From Chloroflexota bacterium (GTDB lineage Bacteria > Chloroflexota > Dehalococcoidia > Bin125), in assembly GCA_028873865.1 (NCBI GenBank), contig JAPPNI010000035.1, positions 1 through 45,373 of the forward strand: a stretch of DNA of 45,373 nucleotides, in the 5' to 3' direction. Position 1 is the stretch's first letter; every line of letters starts with the position of its first letter. This document shows positions 7,499 to 32,623 of this stretch, piece after piece. Both the position numbers and the translations under genes were made by a program. The notes beneath the pieces were generated by a model. It was not told the DNA's origin. It saw only the letters and a program-made list of their open reading frames with translations, and ran no database searches.

Positions 7499-8622
7499 TC
7501 GTCCTTCGGCTTTCGATAAAACGGGCGGCGAACGACTTCGACCGGCAGCGCCCGACCCCTGACGTCAACCTCGAGCATTGTCCCGCGTTTGGCCTGCTCT
7601 GCGGGCAGATAAGCCATACCGATTCCGAGGCGCAAGCTCGGGCTGTATGCGCCGCTGGTCAAACAGCAGATTGTTTCGGTCCCGCCGGGCTCCCGAACTT
7701 CGAATCCCGCCCTGATCACTCCGCGAGCCCGAGCCGCCAGGTGCGCCAGGCGACGAGTTCGCGGCTGCGCCTTGAGTTCTGCGAGCGCTTCGCGGCCCGT
7801 GAACGGCGCGACGTCGTCGAGGCTGACGGCGAAACCCAATCCCGCTTCATAGGGATGCGTGGTGGCGTCGATGTCGTTGCCGTGCAGCGGCAGGGCCGCT
7901 TCCAACCGCAGGGTGTCGCGTGCGCCGAGTCCGGCCGGCGTCGCGCCAGCTTCCGTGAGCGCGTCCCACAATGCGCCGGCATGTTCGGTGTCGATGATGC
8001 ACTCGCCGCCGTCTTCACCTGTGTAGCCCGTCCGGGCGAACAGGACCGACGTGCCCTGCCAGTCGAGCTCGGCGCACTCCCTTGGCTGCATCGAAGGGAT
8101 GTCCTCGCTCAGGACGCTGCCCAGCAAAGCGATGGCCTCCGGTCCCTGGATTGCCAGCATCACGGTCTGGGGTGTGACCTCCGAAGCTGCGCTTCCGGCG
8201 ACGGCTTGCAGCCGCTCGAAGTCGCTGTCGGCGTTGGAGGCGTTGTGGATGACCAGCCAGCGATCGTCAGGCAGGTGATAGATGAACACGTCGTCTTCGA
8301 TGCCGCCGGCTTCGTTGCAGTAGAGCGAGTAGTGGGCCTGTCCCTCAGGCAAGGAAGTGACGTCGAACGTCGTCACCGAGCGCAGCATCTCTCCCGCCTC
8401 GGGACCCTCGACCCATGCCCGCGCCAAATGAGAGACGTCGAAGACGCCGACGCGTTCGCGCACGGCGAGGTGCTCGGCCACGATGCCCTCGTACTGGAGC
8501 GGCATCTCCCAGCCGGCAAAAGGAGCGAAGCGCGCTCCGCGGGCCACGTGCCGCTCGCGCAAAGCCAGTTGCGTGAGCGGGCCTCCGTTCTGTTGGTCGC
8601 TCATCCACCACACTGTACTCAT
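7495..8622 (-). CDS. gcvT: Aminomethyltransferase, glycine cleavage T protein
   Basis: This 375-residue protein transfers the methylene unit from GcvH to tetrahydrofolate and releases ammonia. [16 protein letters not shown] near residues 33-48 and [15 protein letters not shown] near 59-73 (with the conserved DVSH) are family signatures, as are [10 protein letters not shown] and the C-terminal GIGMAYLP. It is the first gene of the operon. Two in-frame ATGs exist (8622 and 8604) and neither has a strong Shine-Dalgarno sequence; starting at 8604 would remove six residues. No glycine-riboswitch core is apparent in the 131-bp leader. Glycine supply could also come from the L-threonine aldolase near 41-42 kb. 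Confidence 0.95.
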
Positions 8623-8694
8623 TGCTATTGAGTACGTCTTGCCTGCGCCATTGGAGTCTTCTATCGCAAAAGGCTCAATTATGAACGCCGATCC

Positions 8695-8720
8695 CCGAGT
8701 GTGTAGGGCTTGCCACTCGG
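8695..8720. terminator. Hairpin between the AlkD-like gene and gcvT
   Basis: CCGAGTG and CACTCGG form a perfect 7-bp stem around a 12-nt loop. The element lies 34 bp beyond the stop of the AlkD-like gene and about 73 bp before gcvT, both on the minus strand. There is no T-tract, so it could be a factor-assisted terminator or a structured leader. Confidence 0.3.
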
Positions 8721-8753
8721 TTGGCCTGCTTCACACCATGCAGGAATCGATGT

Positions 8754-9533
8754 TCAACGAGTGCGCCGATGATGAGCGGCCGCAACAGCTCGCGTCGGGT
8801 CGCGTTCAGCTTCTCCGGCGGCCGCTCTGGCTCTGGCCTTCTCCGCGCGTCTCGCGGCCAGTTCGGCCCGGCGAGCCAGGGTGCGTTCGATGTACGGCTC
8901 AACGTCCGGCGTCTTGCAGCCGGTTTCTCCGTGGTCGACCTCCACCGGGCAGACTGTTCGAGCGGTGTCCAGCACCGACTGGCGCAGGCTGTCGTCGCGC
9001 AGACCGATCGTGATCAGCGCTCCATTCATCTCGTGACGTACCCGATTCGGGCGCTCCGAGATCTGCGAGCCGATCTGTTCAACGAACGCGCTCAACTCTT
9101 GCGGCGACCACAGCTCCGGTTGCTCGGCAGTGCAGGCGATGATGAACCATCCCACCGATGCCGGCCACTCTTCGCCTGAATCCCTCAGCTCATCGCTGAG
9201 CTGTCGCACGATCGGAGACCGCGAGACCAGCCGGCCCAGTTCCTCGGCCAGGATGTAGTTGTCGACATCCTGCAGCCAGCGCTGAGCCAGCTCAACGGAC
9301 AGTTCTCCGGGGTCGGCGATGCGCAGGGCGAGCACGCGAGCGTCGTGGTAACCGCTCTCCCAGAGTTCGATGGCCAGTTGGTGCTCGCCGCGCAGCGGCT
9401 TGCCGATCCGGGTCAGTTCCTTGTAGCTGACGCCGAGGATGGGCTCGGCGGCGCCGTGGCGGGGATAGACCTTGCGGTTCTGGGCAGTGCCGGCCGCTTC
9501 CAGCTCGGTCAGGACCTCTGCCAGGGTGGCCAT
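8754..9533 (-). CDS. DNA alkylation repair (AlkD/AlkC HEAT-like) family protein
   Basis: This 259-residue protein starts at the ATG at 9533, preceded by GAAGGAG at good spacing. The order of features matches the DNA alkylation repair family: [16 protein letters not shown] near residues 32-47, then [20 protein letters not shown] near 53-72, followed by HEAT-like helical repeats. Family members bind DNA and excise alkylated bases such as 3-methyladenine and 7-methylguanine. The C-terminal 40 residues are rich in Arg and Ala and look like a flexible basic tail that may bind nucleic acid. It lies 14 bp after the metal-dependent hydrolase gene on the same strand. Many members of this broad family are untested, so repair activity is inferred. 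Confidence 0.75.
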
Positions 9534-24421: not shown

Positions 24422-24889
24422 ATGAGCGAGATTCAGAAGATCACTCCGTACCTCTGGTACGACAACACCGCTCGCGAGGCGGTTGGGCTGTACGTTTCCC
24501 TGTTTCCGAACTCCCGCATCCTCGACGTCCAGACGATTCCATCGGGTCCCGGGGCGGAGGGAGCGATCGTGGAGTTCGAGTTGGACGGCCAGCGCATGAC
24601 GGCTTTCGACGGCGGGCCGATGTTCAGGTTCACGGAGGCGCTGTCGTTCATGGTTTCCTGCGAGACGCAGGGCGAGATCGACCACTACTGGTACGGGCTC
24701 TCGGCGGGCGGAGAAGAGCAGCAATGTGGTTGGCTGAAGGACCCGTACGGCCTGTCCTGGCAGATTGTGCCGGCGGAACTGTCGGAGTTGATGGAGGCGG
24801 CGCCCGGTCCAGTGATGGATGAACTGCTCAAGATGGGCAAGATTGAGATCGAGCCGCTGCGTCGGGCGGCCAACGACTCGGCGCGCTAG
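24422..24889 (+). CDS. PhnB-like VOC protein (3-demethylubiquinone methyltransferase fold)
   Basis: A 155-residue protein of the PhnB/'3-demethylubiquinone-9 3-methyltransferase' VOC group, despite the family name not a confirmed methyltransferase. ITPYLWYDNTAREAVGLYVS at residues 7-26 and the late GWLKDPYGLSWQIVP near 103-117 are standard landmarks. An AGCAGG Shine-Dalgarno precedes the ATG. It follows the DUF7002 gene closely. Its stop overlaps the end of the convergent amidohydrolase gene by 4 bp. Confidence 0.85.
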   Translation: MSEIQKITPYLWYDNTAREAVGLYVSLFPNSRILDVQTIPSGPGAEGAIVEFELDGQRMTAFDGGPMFRFTEALSFMVSCETQGEIDHYWYGLSAGGEEQQCGWLKDPYGLSWQIVPAELSELMEAAPGPVMDELLKMGKIEIEPLRRAANDSAR

Positions 24890-26493
24890 AGGGAGTACAG
24901 CAACTCTCCATCGACGTAGGTCTGCTGCACCGAGATCTCACGAATCGACCCCGGATCGACCAGCGTCGGATCATGGCTCAGCACCACCAAGTCAGCTCGC
25001 TTGCCGACCTCGATTGAGCCGACCTCATGGTCTCGGAACATGGCGGCGGCGGAGTTGATCGTCTGGGTTCTGAGGGCTTCGAGCGGGGAGAGGGTCTCTT
25101 CCTCAGCGATCACGTCGCCCTCACGCGAGCGACGGGCGGTGAGGCCGTAGAGGCCGATCAGCGGCTCGACCGGGGCACAGGGGAAGTCGGAGCCGGATGC
25201 GACCGTTACGCCGGCGTCGAGGAATGAGCGGTAGGGCAGCGGCGGGATGGTCAGGCCGGCGTTGGCGATGAAGTCGACGAAGCCCTGTCCGACCGAGTAG
25301 AGGAAGGCCGGCTGGTGGGAGATGATCACGCCGAGCGAGGCGGCGCGCTCCATCTGGCCGGGGTCGGCGAAGAAGAAATGCTCGATCCGGTAGCGGGCGT
25401 CGCCGCGCGGGATTTCGCGCTGGACGCGCTCGTAGGTGTTGAGGGCCTGCTCGATGGCGCGGTTGCCGAGGCAGTGGATCGCCGTCTGCAGCCCATGCGA
25501 GGCCGCGTTGAGCACGAGCTGATCGACCTCGTCCTGGTTGTAGTAGGGCTCGCCCACGTCTTCGAACGTGCCGTCGGCGTGGCACTTGCGCAGGGCGTTG
25601 GAGGGATAGACGGGGTCCATGAACAGCTTGACGATGCCGCCGCGCAGGCGGTCGGAGACATCGTCCTGGAGAAAGGCGCCGTTGGCGGCGGCCTCGGGGG
25701 CGGCGAAGAAGCCGTTGCCGCCGCGCATCTGGTGAATGACAATCGGCAGCTTGCCGCGCTCGTCGGCGAGGCGGTACATCTCGGCGCTCTCGGGCATGAC
25801 AACGGCGTCGCCGACGCTGGTGACGCCGTGCGAGAGATGACGCAGCGCGTTCTGCTCGACGAGGTCGGCCACGATCTCCGGTCCGAGCGTGTCGATGTGC
25901 GAGCGCATCGAGGCGTGATGGACCAGATCGGAGGCTCGCTCGTAGAGCATGCCGGTCGCTTCGCCGCTCTCGTCGCGCAGGATCTGACCGCCGCGCGGGT
26001 CGGGGGTTTCGAAGTTGATCCCGGCGATCGACATCGCGGCCGAGTTGGCGTAGCTGGCGTGGTAGGAGTAGTCCATCACGCAGACGGGATTGTCGGGCGC
26101 CACGTCATCGAGCTCAGATCGGGTGAGCCAGCCGCCATTGGCGTGTCGGGCGCTGTAGCCGAGTCCCCAGACCCACTGTCCGGCGGGCGTGGCCTCGGCC
26201 GCCGCGGCGATAGCGTCGAGGACGGCCGGTTTGCCGGCCAGGGGCGGGATCCGGCAGTCGACCGAGACCGGCTCGAAGGTCGTCATCGAGAAGTGGTTGT
26301 GCGGATCGCAGAAGCCAGGAATCAGGGCGCGGCCGCGCAGGTCGACGTGGGCGGCGTCGGGGCCGACTGTTTGCCGCACCTCGCCGCTGTCGCCAACGGC
26401 GATGATCTTGCCGTCGCGCACCGCAACGCCCGACGCGATCCGGTCGAGCCCATCCATGGTCAAGACGCGTCCGCCGGTGAATAGCAGTTCCAT
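24886..26493 (-). CDS. YtcJ-type amidohydrolase, paralogue A
   Basis: A 535-residue metal-dependent hydrolase of the YtcJ/NfdA group (N-substituted formamide deformylase-like, amidohydrolase superfamily subtype III). DPHNHFS at residues 63-69 supplies the HxH metal ligands, AIHCLGNRA and RIEHFFF the next two histidines, and ASGSDFP the catalytic aspartate. It probably hydrolyses an amide, urethane or formamide in the cytoplasm. GAGGAGG lies 5 bp before the ATG. It is roughly 70% identical by eye to paralogue B (31007-32623), with the same orientation. The two bracket the permease/methyltransferase/Rieske cassette. Confidence 0.88.
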   Translation of the reverse strand: MELLFTGGRVLTMDGLDRIASGVAVRDGKIIAVGDSGEVRQTVGPDAAHVDLRGRALIPGFCDPHNHFSMTTFEPVSVDCRIPPLAGKPAVLDAIAAAAEATPAGQWVWGLGYSARHANGGWLTRSELDDVAPDNPVCVMDYSYHASYANSAAMSIAGINFETPDPRGGQILRDESGEATGMLYERASDLVHHASMRSHIDTLGPEIVADLVEQNALRHLSHGVTSVGDAVVMPESAEMYRLADERGKLPIVIHQMRGGNGFFAAPEAAANGAFLQDDVSDRLRGGIVKLFMDPVYPSNALRKCHADGTFEDVGEPYYNQDEVDQLVLNAASHGLQTAIHCLGNRAIEQALNTYERVQREIPRGDARYRIEHFFFADPGQMERAASLGVIISHQPAFLYSVGQGFVDFIANAGLTIPPLPYRSFLDAGVTVASGSDFPCAPVEPLIGLYGLTARRSREGDVIAEEETLSPLEALRTQTINSAAAMFRDHEVGSIEVGKRADLVVLSHDPTLVDPGSIREISVQQTYVDGELLYSL

Positions 26494-26688: not shown

Positions 26689-28425
26689 GTGGCCAACGAA
26701 CACATTCGTTATGAGCCCGACGAGCGTGTGCCGCCGCTCTTGACGCTCAACGTCGCGTTTCAGGGCATGGTTCTGATCGTCTCCAATGTGGTCACCTTCG
26801 TAGTCATTTTTTCGGCAGCGTTCAACGACGACGGCAGTTACATGGCCTGGGCCATCGTCGGCGCGCTGCTGATTGCCGGCGTTTCCACGGCGCTGCACGC
26901 ATCGAAGATCGGTCGCCTGGGACCGGGGCACGTTCTGCTCATGGGCTCCGGTGTTCCCTTTCTGGCTGCCTGCGTGCTGGCCGTCGAACAGGGCGGTCTG
27001 GCGTTGATGTCGAGCCTGGTGATCGCGTCCTCGCTGATTCAGTTCGTGGTTGCTGCTCGCCTCGCCCAGTTGCGGCGGTTGATCACTCCGGTCGTCTCCG
27101 GCGTTGCGTTCATGATGATCGCGCTGTCGGCCATGCCAATCGCGCTCGGGAGGCTGAGCGACGTGCCCGTCGGCGCGGGCGACGGGGCCGGCCCTGTGGT
27201 GGGACTGGCGACATTGGCGATCACTGCCCTGCTGATGTTGCTCGGAAGCGGCCTCTGGCGTCTCTGGGCCTTGCCCATCGCCCTGGTCGGCGGCTGCGCG
27301 ATCGCGGTGCCGCTCGGGGTGTACGACATCCAGCGAGCACTCGACGCGCCCTGGTTCGATCTGCCGGAGGTTGCCGGCTGGCCCGGGTTCGGTTCGGTGC
27401 TGGAAGAGGACTTCTGGGCGCTGCTGCTGGTCTTCCTGGTCGTCAGCGCCGTGGTCGCGGTGCGCTCCAGCAGTGAGGGAGCTGCGATTCAACAAGCCTC
27501 GCGACGCGAGCCGCGCAGCATCGACTTTCGCGGCGTGCAACGGACGCTGAACGTGGGCGGAATCGCGATCTTCCTCTCGGGGATCGCCGGCACGCCGCCC
27601 ACAATCGCCTATCTGCCGTCGACCATTTCGCTGTTCCAGTTCACCGGCGTCGCCGCTCGGCGGGTCGGAATCACTATCGGCGTGATGCTGATCGTGGCCG
27701 CGCTGCTGCCCAAGATCGTGGCCATGCTGCTCACGATTCCGCGACCGGTCAGCGGCGCGCTGTTGCTGGTGATCATGGGGCTGCTCTTCGTTGAAGGCAC
27801 GCGCACGGTCATGCGAGACGGACTTAACCGACAGCGCGCAGCGATTGTCGGGACGTCGCTCTCGATCGCGGTCGGGTTGCAGAGCCAGAACATCCTGGCG
27901 GAGGTGATTGGCGGCACCTGGGGAGCGACGCTGGGCAATGGGGTGGTCTTCGGCGTGTCGGCTGCGGTGCTGTTGACCGTGGTGCTCGAGCTGGCCGGTT
28001 CCCGTCCCCGGCCTCGGCGGATGGAAACCGAGCTGGATATCTCGGCCTTGCCCGAGATCGAGGCGTTCCTGCGCCAGCTCGGCGCCGACTTGCGCTGGAA
28101 CCGGGAGTCAATCGACCGTCTGCATGCGGCGGGCGAGGAGACGTTATCGGCCATGTTGAACCTGCGCGACGACTACGAATCGGACCAGCCGCCTCGCCTG
28201 GTGCTGATCGCGCGTCCGGCCGGCGGGACGATCGAGCTGGAGTTCCTGGCGCTGTTCTCGGAGGAGAACCTGGAGGACCGAATCGCATACCTGAGTGAAC
28301 AGGCCGAGGAGCCCGACGTGGGCGACATCTCCTTCCGCCTGCTGCGCTTCTACGCGTCGTCGGTGCGGCATCGGAAGTACTACGGTGTTGATATCGTGAC
28401 GGTCGAGGTCGACGGTTCGCGTTAG
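26689..28425 (+). CDS. NCS2-like purine/pyrimidine permease with C-terminal cytoplasmic domain
   Basis: This 578-residue protein has a membrane part (about residues 18-440, some 12-14 hydrophobic segments) resembling nucleobase:cation symporter 2 (uracil-xanthine permease) proteins: it opens with YEPDERVPPLLTLNVAFQGM and has the FLSGIAGTPPTIAYLPSTIS stretch where NCS2 proteins carry their conserved motif. Residues from about 445 form a soluble domain, with LHAAGEETLSAMLNLRDDY and a Ser/Phe-rich ending, that resembles a histidine-kinase-type ATPase (anti-sigma-factor) fold; I see no clear N-box, so ATP binding is uncertain. The start is GTG at 26689 with a weak Shine-Dalgarno. It heads the plus-strand cassette with the sterol-type genes. 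The substrate may not be a nucleobase. Confidence 0.75.
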   Translation: MANEHIRYEPDERVPPLLTLNVAFQGMVLIVSNVVTFVVIFSAAFNDDGSYMAWAIVGALLIAGVSTALHASKIGRLGPGHVLLMGSGVPFLAACVLAVEQGGLALMSSLVIASSLIQFVVAARLAQLRRLITPVVSGVAFMMIALSAMPIALGRLSDVPVGAGDGAGPVVGLATLAITALLMLLGSGLWRLWALPIALVGGCAIAVPLGVYDIQRALDAPWFDLPEVAGWPGFGSVLEEDFWALLLVFLVVSAVVAVRSSSEGAAIQQASRREPRSIDFRGVQRTLNVGGIAIFLSGIAGTPPTIAYLPSTISLFQFTGVAARRVGITIGVMLIVAALLPKIVAMLLTIPRPVSGALLLVIMGLLFVEGTRTVMRDGLNRQRAAIVGTSLSIAVGLQSQNILAEVIGGTWGATLGNGVVFGVSAAVLLTVVLELAGSRPRPRRMETELDISALPEIEAFLRQLGADLRWNRESIDRLHAAGEETLSAMLNLRDDYESDQPPRLVLIARPAGGTIELEFLALFSEENLEDRIAYLSEQAEEPDVGDISFRLLRFYASSVRHRKYYGVDIVTVEVDGSR

Positions 28426-28464
28426 TGAACGCGAACCGTTTGCGATCTCATCAGCTGAACACCG

Positions 28465-28483
28465 GGCAATGGGCCCCGTTGCC
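28465..28483. promoter_or_regulatory. Hairpin between the permease and DUF1330 genes
   Basis: GGCAATGG and CCGTTGCC pair over 8 bp with one G-U, around a 3-nt loop. It lies between the permease stop and the DUF1330 start, 20 bp before the latter. It could set different expression of the permease and the downstream genes by termination or RNA processing. Confidence 0.3.
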
Positions 28484-28502
28484 ACAGAGAGGATTTGCCG
28501 AG

Positions 28503-28796
28503 ATGAGCAGTTATCTGGTTATTGACACTGAGGTGATTGACGAGGACGCATTCGCGGAGTTCGTGGTGAAGATCTACGACGCTGCGATCGCGGAGGGCGG
28601 CACGTTCATCGTTCGTGGCAGCGATCTGGATGTGATCGAGGGCGACTGGACGCCGCAGCGGCTCGTGATCATGTCGTTCGACAGCGACGACGGCGCCGGC
28701 GAGTTTGTCCGCTCGACCGCGTACACAGCGCTCGAGGAACTTCGCTTGCGAGCGGTGCGATCGAAGGTCGTGGTGGCGGCCGGCTACAACGGCTGA
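28503..28796 (+). CDS. DUF1330-family protein
   Basis: A 97-residue ferredoxin-like (dimeric alpha-beta barrel) protein. It opens with SYLVIDTEVIDEDAFAEFVV, continues with GGTFIVRGSDLDVIEGDWTP near residues 37-56 and RLVIMSF near 58-64, which is the DUF1330 pattern. The family's function is not settled; related barrels act as small monooxygenases or substrate-binding proteins. I chose the ATG at 28503. It lies 46 bp upstream of the sterol-methyltransferase-like gene on the same strand and is probably co-transcribed with it, which makes it a candidate auxiliary of that pathway. Confidence 0.8.
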   Translation: MSSYLVIDTEVIDEDAFAEFVVKIYDAAIAEGGTFIVRGSDLDVIEGDWTPQRLVIMSFDSDDGAGEFVRSTAYTALEELRLRAVRSKVVVAAGYNG

Positions 28797-28842: not shown

Positions 28843-29874
28843 GTGCCGACCGATGTAGACGAACAACGCAGCGGCAATCCTCGCGAGGCCCTGCGCGACT
28901 ACCACCAGATTCAGCAACTGAGCGAGTCGCAGGAGGACGCCGCGCGGATCGAAGAGCAACCGAAGCTGGTCAGTCGGTTCTACGACGCCGTCACCCGCTT
29001 TTACGTGTTCGGTTGGGGCACGACCTTCCACTTTTCGCCACGGCGTCCCGGAGAGAGCCTGGTCGAGTCCCAGCGGCGGCACGATGAGGAGGTCGGAGAG
29101 ATCCTGCAGCTCAAACCGGGGATGGAAGTGGCGGACCTCGGATGCGGGGTTGGCGGTCCGATGATCACGATCGGGAGGGCGAGTGGGGCCAACATCACCG
29201 GGATCAACTTCAGTCCCGAACAGATTTCGCGAGGCGAGCGGCTGGTGGCGAAGGCGGGTCTGAGCGATACCTGCCGCTTCCTCTACGCCAACTTCATGGA
29301 TGTGCCGCTGGAGGATGAGACGTTCGATGCGGTCTATTCCTTTGAGGCCGTCTGTCATGCGCCTAACAACCTGCTGCTGTTCCAGGAGCTGTACCGGCTC
29401 GTGAAGCCGGGGGGCGAGATCGCGATCGTCGATTGGTGCTTCACCGACAAGTTTGACCCCGCAAATCCCCGTCATCAGCAGATTCGCAGAGACATCGAGA
29501 CGAACAACGCGGTGCCGGATCTGCTCACCACGGAACGGCAGGTGGAGACGGTTGAGGAAGCCGGCTTCGAGATCATCCAGGCGATTGATCAACAGGCCGA
29601 GCACGGCAACGCGGAAACGCCCTGGTACATGGCGCTTCAGGGACGCGATTTCTCGTTCACATCGTGGGCCCGAACTCCGATCGGCCGCGGATTCACAGCG
29701 ACCGTGACCAAGTTCCTTGAGCTGGTGCGGATCGCTCCGGCGGGAACCAGCGAAACCGCCTCGTTCCTCAACGTCGCGGCGGACGCGCTGGTCGAGGGCG
29801 GCGAGCTGGAGATATTCACTCCGAGTTTCCTGGTGCACGCTCGCAAACCGGTTGGGGGTGGTGATGCGTCATGA
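28843..29874 (+). CDS. Sterol C-24 methyltransferase (SMT/Erg6-like)
   Basis: A 343-residue SAM-dependent methyltransferase that carries all four signature regions of eukaryotic sterol 24-C-methyltransferase. Region I is FYVFGWGTTFHF (residues 53-64; yeast has YEYGWGSSFHF), the SAM motif is DLGCGVGGP (98-106), region III is YSFEAVCHAP (165-174) and region IV is VDWCFTDKF (196-204). The last 70 residues (IGRGFTATV near 280, IAPAGTSETASFL near 297, LFTP-like IFTPSFLVHARKP near 324) match the sterol methyltransferase C-terminal domain. It would add a methyl group to C-24 of a sterol side chain. The start is GTG at 28843 with AGGTG 5 bp upstream. In region I the usual Glu is Val55. Other prenyl methyltransferases share the SAM part but lack the GWG-FHF element, so a sterol or close triterpenoid substrate is favoured. 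Confidence 0.85.
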   Translation: MPTDVDEQRSGNPREALRDYHQIQQLSESQEDAARIEEQPKLVSRFYDAVTRFYVFGWGTTFHFSPRRPGESLVESQRRHDEEVGEILQLKPGMEVADLGCGVGGPMITIGRASGANITGINFSPEQISRGERLVAKAGLSDTCRFLYANFMDVPLEDETFDAVYSFEAVCHAPNNLLLFQELYRLVKPGGEIAIVDWCFTDKFDPANPRHQQIRRDIETNNAVPDLLTTERQVETVEEAGFEIIQAIDQQAEHGNAETPWYMALQGRDFSFTSWARTPIGRGFTATVTKFLELVRIAPAGTSETASFLNVAADALVEGGELEIFTPSFLVHARKPVGGGDAS

Positions 29875-30998
29875 TGGGCTTCAGGTCAAGACGCGAGCGG
29901 CAGTCCTCGCTTCTTGAGGCGCGGCGAGCGGAGAGCTACCCCTATCCCTACCCCACGGGCTGGTACCGGCTGGCGTCGATCGACTCCCTCCGCCGGGGCG
30001 AGATTCGCTACCTAGAGTGCCTGGGCAAGCAGTTCGTGCTCTGGCGAGAGCGTGAGAGCGGCGAGGTCCTCTTGATGGACGCGTTCTGCCCGCATCTGGG
30101 CGCCAATCTCGCTCGGGGGCGTGTCCGCGGCGACTGCATCGAGTGTCCGTTTCACCAGTGGCAGTTCGCCGGCGATGGCAGCGTTGCGCACATTCCGTAC
30201 AGTGAGCGTCCTCCGGCCCGAGTCCTGGCGTCGACGTATCCGCTGAGCGATGTCCACGGCGACCTGTTCCTGTTTCATCGCAGCGAGGGATCGCAGGACG
30301 ACCGGGACGGCCCGCCTCCTTATGAGGTGCCCCGTCTTCCCGAGGTGGATAGCGGACGGTTCGTTCCACGCGGACGTCGCAGTGCCGGTCGAGTCGGGAT
30401 GCACATCTTCGAGATCGCTGAGAACGCGGTCGACACGGCTCACTTTCAGCCGCTCCATGGACGGTTTCGGGTGCCGTGGACGCAGATCCCCATACCGGGA
30501 GTCGAGATCGTGCATACGGCGGAGTGGATGCTCGATGCCGAGTATCCGTGGGTGATGCACTTCGACGACAGCGTGATCCTGCGCGCCTTCGGACGCCGAA
30601 TCGGGCGGACAGAATCCAAGGCGCGGGTTTCCTACTACGGACCGGGCAGCCTGTTGGTCTTTCGTTTCGATCTTGAGGGCCTAGGCGAGATCGTGATGTA
30701 TCAGACCTTTCTGCCCATCAGCCCGCTGGAGCAACAGGTGGACTTCCGTTGGTTCGCCGACCGAACGATACCGAGGCTGTTGGTCTGGTACGTGATCGGC
30801 AACTGGATGTCGCAGTTTCCCCAGGACATTGAAATCTGGGAGAACAAGGTCCACGTGCCTCAACCGAAGCTCTGCCGAGATGACGGTCCGGTCTACGAGA
30901 TGCGCCGTTGGTATCAGCAATTCCTGCCCAACGAGCCGACCTCGGCCGATGTGGTCAAGACAAGCTCGCCTCGTGAGCGCTCCACTCCAGCGGCTTAA
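29871..30998 (+). CDS. DAF-36/Neverland-like Rieske oxygenase (sterol 7-desaturase type)
   Basis: A 375-residue Rieske non-heme iron oxygenase. The [2Fe-2S] ligands are Cys73, His75, Cys92 and His95, in CPHLGANLARGRV and CIECPFHQWQF. The mononuclear iron site is ENAVDTAHFQPLH, with Asp188, His191 and His196, plus Asp319 in PQDIEIWENK. The opening YPYPYPTGWYRL and the ending QPKLCRDDGPVYEMRRWYQQ resemble DAF-36/Neverland, which introduces the C7-C8 double bond into cholesterol, and related KshA steroid hydroxylases. It should need a ferredoxin reductase, which is not in this window. Its ATG overlaps the SMT stop by 4 bp, strong evidence for a joint pathway. Regiochemistry is inferred, not shown. 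Confidence 0.82.
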   Translation: MMGFRSRRERQSSLLEARRAESYPYPYPTGWYRLASIDSLRRGEIRYLECLGKQFVLWRERESGEVLLMDAFCPHLGANLARGRVRGDCIECPFHQWQFAGDGSVAHIPYSERPPARVLASTYPLSDVHGDLFLFHRSEGSQDDRDGPPPYEVPRLPEVDSGRFVPRGRRSAGRVGMHIFEIAENAVDTAHFQPLHGRFRVPWTQIPIPGVEIVHTAEWMLDAEYPWVMHFDDSVILRAFGRRIGRTESKARVSYYGPGSLLVFRFDLEGLGEIVMYQTFLPISPLEQQVDFRWFADRTIPRLLVWYVIGNWMSQFPQDIEIWENKVHVPQPKLCRDDGPVYEMRRWYQQFLPNEPTSADVVKTSSPRERSTPAA

Positions 30999-31006
30999 CC
31001 GGCGGT

Positions 31007-32623
31007 CTACACCGAGTAGAGCAGGTCGCCGTCGACGTAGGTCTGCTGGACGGCCATCTCCTGGATGTAGGTGGGGTCGACCAAGGTCGGATCGTGGCTG
31101 AGAACGACCAGGTCGGCCCGCTTGCCAACTTCGATTGAGCCCACTTCATGCTCGCGGAACATCGCCGTCGCCGAGTTGAGCGTGTAGGTGCGCAGCGCCT
31201 CGAGCGGCGAGATGGCCTGATCGGCTGCCACCTGGCGGCCGTCGCGCGCGGTGCGTGAGACCAGGCCGTACAGGCCCAGCAACGGTTGCACCGGAGCGCA
31301 GGGGAAGTCGGACCCCGAGGCGACGAAGACACCGACGTCCAGCATGTCGCGGTATGGGATCGGCACGCTGTCGAGTCCGGCCTCGGCAATCCGGGTCTCG
31401 AAGAACTCGCCGATGGCGTTGAGGAAGGGCGGCTGATGCGAGACGATCACTCCGAGCGAGCGGGCCCGCTCGATCTGTTCCGGCGTGGCGAAGCTGAAGT
31501 GCTCGATCCGGTAGCGCGGGTCATCGCGTGGGATTTCCCGTTGCGCGCGTTCGAAGGCGTTCAGGCCCTGCTCGACGGCTCGGTTGCCGATGCAGTGGAT
31601 CGCGACCTGCAGGCCGTGTGAGGCGGCATCGAGGACGAGGTGATCGACCTCTTCCTGTCCGTAATAGGGATCGCCGACGGGCTCGGTCGTGCCGTCTTCG
31701 TGACAGACCGTCATGGCCGGGCTGGGCCAGACGGGGTCCATGAAGATCTTGACGATGCCGCCGCGCAGGCGGTCGGAGACGTCGTCCTCCATGAAGGCGC
31801 CACCGGCCGCGTCCTCCGGTGCGGCGAAGAAGCCGGGACCGCCGCGCATCTGGTGAATCACGATCGGCAGCTTGCCGCGCGCGTCGGTCAGACGGTAGAT
31901 CTCCGCGCTCTCAGGCATGACCAGCGCGTCGCCGACGCTGGTTATTCCGTGCGACAGGTGTCGCAGCGCGTTCTGTTGGACGAGGTCGGCGACGACGTCT
32001 TCACCGAACGTGTCGATGTAGGAGCGCATCGAGGCGTGATGTACGGGGTCCATTGCCCGTTCCCAAAGCACGCCGTTGGGCTCGCCGTAATCGTCCTTGC
32101 GGATCTCTCCACCCGGCGGATTAGGAGTGTCGCGATCGATGCCGACCAGCGCCATGGCCGCCGAGTTGGCGTAGCAGGCGTGATAGGAGGAGTCCATCAC
32201 GCAGACCGGGTTGTTCGGCGCGGCCTCGTCGAGCTCGCGGCGGTGCAGCAGGTCCTCGCCGGAGGGTTCGAAGTTACGCGCGGCGAAGCCCAGTCCCCAG
32301 ATCCACTGCCCATCGGGAGCGCCGGCGGCAGCGGCAGCGATGGCGTCGATGACCTGTTTCGGACCCGCCATCGGCGGCGTGCGGCAATCGACCGATCGCG
32401 GCTCAAACGTGGTCATGGAGAAGTGGTTGTGCGGGTCACAGAAGCCGGGCACGAGCGCTCGACCGCGGAGATCGACGTGGACGGCGTCGGGGCCGACCGC
32501 CGCCCGAGCCTCGGCGCTGTCGCCGACCGCGACGATTCTCCCGTCGCGCACAGCGACGCCGGAAGCGATGCGATCCATAGGATCGATGGTCAACACGCGC
32601 CCGCCGGTGAATAGCAGTTCCAT
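31007..32623 (-). CDS. YtcJ-type amidohydrolase, paralogue B
   Basis: A 538-residue paralogue of the gene at 24886-26493, sharing long identical blocks such as ALRHLSHG and KLPIVIHQMRGG. The HxH metal site DPHNHFS, the AIHCIGNRA and RIEHFSF histidines and ASGSDFP are all intact, so it should be active. It carries a short insertion near residues 113-121 relative to the other copy. AGGAGG lies about 5 bp before the ATG. It converges on the Rieske gene with only 8 bp between the stop codons. As with the other copy, the substrate is unknown. Confidence 0.88.
   Translation of the reverse strand: MELLFTGGRVLTIDPMDRIASGVAVRDGRIVAVGDSAEARAAVGPDAVHVDLRGRALVPGFCDPHNHFSMTTFEPRSVDCRTPPMAGPKQVIDAIAAAAAGAPDGQWIWGLGFAARNFEPSGEDLLHRRELDEAAPNNPVCVMDSSYHACYANSAAMALVGIDRDTPNPPGGEIRKDDYGEPNGVLWERAMDPVHHASMRSYIDTFGEDVVADLVQQNALRHLSHGITSVGDALVMPESAEIYRLTDARGKLPIVIHQMRGGPGFFAAPEDAAGGAFMEDDVSDRLRGGIVKIFMDPVWPSPAMTVCHEDGTTEPVGDPYYGQEEVDHLVLDAASHGLQVAIHCIGNRAVEQGLNAFERAQREIPRDDPRYRIEHFSFATPEQIERARSLGVIVSHQPPFLNAIGEFFETRIAEAGLDSVPIPYRDMLDVGVFVASGSDFPCAPVQPLLGLYGLVSRTARDGRQVAADQAISPLEALRTYTLNSATAMFREHEVGSIEVGKRADLVVLSHDPTLVDPTYIQEMAVQQTYVDGDLLYSV

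Follow-up and report, generated by a model that had tools for sequence, protein, structure and literature searches.

The 45,373-nt stretch of a Chloroflexota contig analysed here (the window) carries two adjacent forward-strand genes, one encoding a sterol C-24-methyltransferase-like protein (SMT; positions 28843-29874, 343 aa, GTG start) and the other a Rieske non-heme iron oxygenase of the KshA_C family (29871-30998, 375 aa, ATG start), whose stop and start codons overlap by 4 bp in the sequence ATGA (29871-29874, forward strand). The pair is real and lies, overlap included, where a sequence-only reading of this DNA had placed it. We consider it probable that the two enzymes form a module combining 24-alkylation with ring oxidation, which finishes sterols that the bacterium itself makes.

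An alternative, longer SMT frame starts at TTG 28705 and would give 389 aa. Upstream on the same strand lie a gene for a small DUF1330 protein (28425-28796, Pfam DUF1330), 46 bp before the SMT, and, overlapping it, a gene for a membrane protein of the xanthine/uracil permease family (26689-28425, Pfam Xan_ur_permease); each is possibly part of the same transcription unit as the SMT. The DUF1330 family also precedes the SMT at loci L014 and L016, and the permease family (F15) occurs near the SMT at six Chloroflexota loci besides the window. The window permease has a long C-terminal extension, and a look-alike of it, judged by eye, is found in a stretch of the same genome that holds hopene cyclase genes (L009:3528-5285). 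Two similar Amidohydro_3 (YtcJ-type) genes on the opposite strand (24886-26493 and 31007-32623) bracket the permease, DUF1330, SMT and Rieske genes, an arrangement that recurs at L012, L013 and L018. No obvious reductase gene adjoins the Rieske gene.

Sequence comparison supports the assignment of the first protein as a sterol-type SMT. The four signature regions and the sterol C-terminal domain claimed for it were both recovered: Sterol_MT_C matches residues 272-336 (Pfam, E = 3.7e-23, 81.9 bits, cut-off 21.7), the class I SAM methyltransferase domain scores 71.9 bits, also over its Pfam cut-off, and regions I-IV are all found in the window SMT, yeast ERG6 and Arabidopsis SMT1, with none of the four in the MitM segment. 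NCBIfam gave nothing over cut-off for either protein of the pair. Region I of the window SMT departs from the usual pattern at one position, with V in place of an E that is present in 110 of the 113 motif-bearing homologues (among 120 listed), a feature common to its relatives L012, L013 and L014; the acidic residue is catalytically relevant in yeast. Identity is 42% to Arabidopsis SMT1 (315 residues) and 35% to yeast ERG6 (320 residues), and 39% to the MitM segment over 156 residues. MitM is also the best PDB sequence match (108 bits), and no eukaryotic SMT is among the PDB matches. The predicted structure (pLDDT 86.0) retrieved generic class I methyltransferases, and no SMT, among the 50 PDB matches listed. 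In viral contigs, 20 pattern matches were obtained, none related to the window SMT.

In a careful tree of 71 rows, the window SMT falls in a bacterial clade of 40 rows (clade A, 100/100), within which the sister of a Chloroflexota branch (11 rows, window included) is a gammaproteobacterial branch of nine rows (99/97). Four of these nine sister rows (L028, L029, L035 and L056) have a squalene epoxidase-cyclase fusion at most 6.5 kb away; L029 and L035 additionally have neighbours of the P450 and SdmA-like families, and L029 one of the ERG24 family (family names come from Pfam matches of other members, chiefly those of L079). In the other half of the tree (clade B) are ERG6 and SMT1 together with many SMTs from sterol clusters, and the split between the halves is supported at only 88/54; L064, sorted by hand into clade B on a quick tree, stands beside clade A in the careful one (88/54). 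The careful tree was built without MitM, one copy of L088, both copies of L054, L080, L089 and 11 near-copies, and the quick tree without rows of 240 aa or less. The expectation that the protein would not group with other methyltransferases held on the quick tree, where MitM, the sole non-SMT outgroup in a set that contains no prenyl or tocopherol methyltransferases, lies outside the SMTs.

The second protein is supported by sequence as a steroid-type Rieske oxygenase of the KshA/Neverland family. Both Pfam domains are over cut-off (Rieske, 6e-20; KshA_C, 1.6e-25), and the cluster ligands C73, H75, C92 and H95 and the iron-site residues D188, H191, H196 and D319 are invariant in an alignment of 42 sequences that includes eight vertebrate Neverland proteins. 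The SdmA equivalog model, which describes a Rieske enzyme of bacterial sterol metabolism acting in C-4 demethylation with SdmB, gives 38.1 bits against a cut-off of 600. A 7-desaturase like DAF-36, as had been proposed, is a candidate function. The window protein shares with Neverland/DAF-36, the animal cholesterol 7-desaturases, the Rieske and KshA_C domains, the same ligands and 34-36% identity; it is, on the other hand, neither nested among them nor demonstrated as their sister, and it does not have the N-terminal extension of tens of residues seen in the vertebrate proteins. In the Rieske tree it belongs to a clade of its own, with 58 rows (98/97), apart from the eight Neverland rows (99/98), all of them vertebrate, with no arthropod or nematode sequence on our trees. 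The best tree puts this clade nearer to KshA (90/83), which is represented by two rows on long branches, than to Neverland; Neverland as its sister was not rejected (p-AU 0.187, on a tree that omits L088 and near-copies matching ten name prefixes), and trees with and without the long rows give no decision between the two. We take the name 'cholesterol 7-dehydrogenase', attached to some homologues in the source data, to be an automatic label, and we know of no activity for any protein of this clade.

The Rieske model finds its best structural matches in the steroid-ring hydroxylases KshA, well ahead of other Rieske families. No Neverland structure is among the matches listed for the sequence or the model, and its absence from the model's VIA-align list says nothing against kinship. 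Together with the weak preference for KshA as sister in the one tree above and a C-terminal motif, DGPVY..RRWY.QF, which by eye is shared with KshA (3-ketosteroid 9alpha-hydroxylase) and closer to it than to Neverland/DAF-36, this nearest solved fold could speak for a KshA-like catabolic hydroxylase and for a pair that takes part in sterol breakdown. We regard that as quite improbable: the gene is coupled to a methyltransferase that spends SAM, Rieske carriers of the class encode sterol synthesis (see below), no steroid-degradation genes, KshB-type reductase included, were noticed beside the pair, and identity to KshA, from which the clade is separate, is just 31-33%, as against about 60% among known KshAs in the available text of PMC4064121.

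The adjacency of the two genes is a recurrent feature. A scan of genome contigs yielded 273 SMT relatives, of which the best 80 were retained for locus analysis and sorted, with the window, into clades A and B by hand from the quick tree; an SMT was counted as paired when a Rieske gene of this type (HMM score over 150 bits) lay no more than 300 bp away in the same orientation. By this definition, an adjacent Rieske gene is present at 27 of the 52 clade-A loci, from four phyla (Acidobacteriota, 15/18; Chloroflexota, 6/11 plus the window; Pseudomonadota, 4/20, one of them a fragment, L061; Actinomycetota, 1/2), and absent from the other 25; the idea of a pair adjacent only in this genome thus clearly fails. 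The loci are not all independent genomes, L012, L020 and L023 being one MAG. In the other half of the tree only 1 of 29 loci has the pair, the myxococcote L065. Given 1012 SMT homologues and at least 336 Rieske homologues at E ≤ 0.001 (the latter from only the 7999 candidates sharing most words, which were scored), this recurrence makes the pair more than a product of chance.

Two enzymes of different pathways might still be neighbours incidentally. Mapped on the careful SMT tree, presence or absence of the pair requires 11 changes, and copies of the Rieske gene unlinked to an SMT exist in two genomes (G003 and G039; an ORF beside the G039 copy has a weak SMT match of 30 bits), while for one Rieske copy the neighbourhood is similar even where no SMT adjoins it. 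It is nevertheless very unlikely that adjacency is incidental, given its frequency in four phyla, the spacing of the genes (at 22 of the 27 paired loci they overlap by 4 bp or lie 6-18 bp apart), the reversed gene order in the actinomycete L060 and the separate pairing in the myxococcote L065. The copy with the conserved neighbourhood is a second Rieske gene at L018 (14176-15342), 2 kb downstream of the pair and between an amidohydrolase and a PhyH-type dioxygenase; its orthologues in G008, G047 and G048 have similar surroundings with no adjoining SMT.

The source genome encodes further proteins of both kinds. A second, divergent SMT (L011:8641-9663, 37-38% identical to the window SMT) is flanked by two genes identified by eye, a respiratory-complex-subunit-like ORF and one resembling glutamine synthetase, and its closest tree row is L091:4522-5556. 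A second KshA_C Rieske gene (L010:9436-10590, reverse strand) lies beside a gene that fuses a GPP34 (Golgi phosphoprotein 3) domain to a cytochrome P450 (L010:10821-12899, forward strand). The same fusion is found in a Nitrospirales genome (L091:2331-4400), beside an SMT-Rieske pair of a second type and a sterol cluster.

Where the sterol comes from is indicated by the rest of the genome and by its relatives. As the sequence-only reading had it, no squalene epoxidase or oxidosqualene cyclase is near the pair: no epoxidase-cyclase match was found anywhere in the window, and we dropped the notion that sterol synthesis is encoded beside the pair. On another contig of the same genome, though, are an ERG24-like gene (L103:12427-13524, Pfam, 238 bits, over cut-off), an SdmA-like gene (L103:13517-14626, SdmA model best at 400 bits) and an SdmB-like gene (L103:14672-15781, SdmB model best at 304 bits), the latter two below the strict cut-off of 600, together with the N-terminal 131 residues of a CYP51-like P450 (85% identical). 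The order of this block, SdmB-SdmA-ERG24-CYP51, is that which precedes the epoxidase-cyclase fusion in five relatives (L095-L099). A second reductase of the ERG4/ERG24 family, 31% identical to the ERG24-like protein of L079, is encoded near the block (L103:17109-18119, reverse strand); the bond that it reduces could be the 24(28) double bond or one in the rings. An epoxidase-cyclase was not found in the searched part of the genome, where the only matches were a squalene-hopene cyclase and, weakly, an FAD enzyme; since the search covered only part of the genome, this absence has no weight, and we dropped the argument that no cyclase means no synthesis. By analogy with its relatives, we infer that a cyclase is present.

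Genome-level searches for the epoxidase-cyclase and for unlinked Rieske copies covered 50 of the 80 loci. The epoxidase-cyclase fusion, at 74-82% identity, is present in eight of the nine Chloroflexota genomes with a clade-A SMT (G001-G008, with the cyclase part only in G004; G009 has none). Of 294 genomes sampled from the class, ten have the Rieske gene (E ≤ 1e-70) and nine a clade-A SMT, all from the genus of the source organism (Rieske gene in 10 of its 15 members); eight genomes have both, adjacent in six. The epoxidase-cyclase (E ≤ 1e-90) was detected in 17 of the 294, among them 9/9 other Rieske carriers and 8/8 other carriers of a clade-A SMT. As three of the five members of the genus without the Rieske gene also have the epoxidase-cyclase, the association partly reflects kinship and is weak evidence within the genus.

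These data bear on whether the pair instead modifies sterols acquired from the host or other symbionts, which had been proposed as the simplest reading. Besides the lack of a cyclase near the pair, import could draw support from the 15 of 26 pair-bearing genomes in which no epoxidase-cyclase was found, MAG completeness not being stated, and from a functional chlamydial SMT described, in the available text of PMC10070321, from a MAG with no other sterol genes. Among the pair-bearing genomes, the enzyme is found in 5/5 Chloroflexota, 3/15 Acidobacteriota, 2/4 Pseudomonadota, 0/1 Actinomycetota and 1/1 Myxococcota (at 37-41% identity in the last), 11 of 26 in all. Imported sterols are plausible for the Acidobacteriota carriers that show no cyclase. 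For the source organism, with its SdmB-, SdmA-, ERG24- and CYP51-like genes and cyclase-bearing relatives, we consider remodelling of foreign sterols unlikely and dropped import as the only source.

The substrate of the pair might also be a different triterpenoid, squalene or a hopanoid for example. Algal squalene methyltransferases are paralogues of SMTs, and a squalene-hopene cyclase of the source genome (765 bits with TIGR01507, cut-off 431) is encoded on the same contig as two genes of the squalene/phytoene synthase family. From these cyclase and synthase-family genes (L009:10541-12475 and 7610-9443), the organism likely makes hopanoids besides sterols. As the function of the pair, such a substrate seems very doubtful: hopene-cyclase-like matches occur in genomes both with and without the pair, the sister SMTs adjoin sterol genes, and the nearest characterised relatives of the Rieske protein act on steroid rings.

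The module for self-made sterols that we favour draws on the sister SMTs beside sterol genes, the sterol block of the source genome, the census of the class and the adjacency of the two genes, as well as on the KshA matches of the Rieske model and a precedent in Capsaspora: the available text of PMC4967820 describes joint upregulation of a Rieske C7-desaturase, an SMT and a C22-desaturase in this organism, which reworks cholesterol from serum. The SMT would transfer a methyl group from SAM onto the C-24 double bond in the side chain of a delta-24 sterol. Oxidation of the ring system, presumably after or before the methylation, would be the task of the Rieske oxygenase, with O2 and two electrons consumed. 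The most likely ring oxidation would be a 7,8-desaturation, giving delta-7 or delta-5,7 24-alkyl sterols; we put oxidation at C-7/C-8 at a little short of an even chance, the other outcome being a hydroxylation, such as at C-9 or C-7. A wider reading is more tentative and, in our view, rather on the improbable side: the Rieske protein would be a bacterial version of Neverland, with an evolutionary history separate from that of the animal enzyme, that is linked to an SMT in sponge-associated bacteria of at least four phyla, so that bacteria would make delta-5,7 24-alkyl (ergosterol-like, provitamin-D-type) sponge sterols, partly by full synthesis and partly by reworking sterols of the holobiont.

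The source bacterium is probably a sponge symbiont, a possibility already raised by the sequence-only reading and consistent with relatives that come partly from sponge MAGs. Among the best 80 of the 273 loci, the nearest named relatives are Chloroflexota/Dehalococcoidia MAGs. Isolate names such as RHO, IRC, COS and SB06 presumably denote sponges, and 13 of these 80 loci bear jk18x names, the MAG naming of a study of Ircinia sponges, going by the available part of PMC9531527.

In the fossil record, sterols with an alkylated side chain are taken as traces of eukaryotes, sponges above all. If the proposed module is real, bacterial alkylation combined with ring oxidation would widen the possible bacterial share in sponge sterols and sterane biomarkers, in organisms that also encode sterol synthesis, and the Rieske protein of the pair would be a bacterial relative, open to experiment, of the animal hormone enzyme Neverland.

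Among known systems, the closest for the methyltransferase are the functional bacterial SMTs of uncultured, partly sponge-associated bacteria, for which 24-alkylation has been described (Brown et al. 2023, PMC10070321, available text). Like the SMTs studied here, some of these lie in clusters with sdmAB and other sterol genes; compared by description, they differ in that no Rieske partner of the KshA/Neverland type is mentioned for them, and the main text of that paper uses neither 'Rieske' nor 'Chloroflex'. The steroid gene clusters of Ircinia symbionts (PMC9531527) and the msb cluster of a Melophlus symbiont (PMC7074536) are likewise known and, in the available text of both papers, resemble the present case in combining ERG24, CYP51 and a cyclase with an SMT in sponge bacteria, Dehalococcoidia included in the Ircinia study; they differ in that an SMT-Rieske pair is not described there, and the word 'desaturase' does not occur in the available text of PMC9531527. 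Nor was such a pair found in the available text of PMC4967820, PMC4064121, PMC6946804 or PMC10202945, and neither the pair nor a bacterial Neverland-type enzyme tied to sterol synthesis was found in the literature searched (full text, with few subscription papers). Functional bacterial SMTs, sterol clusters of sponge symbionts and Rieske steroid oxygenases were already known; what appears new against the literature searched is the pairing of an SMT with a Rieske oxygenase.
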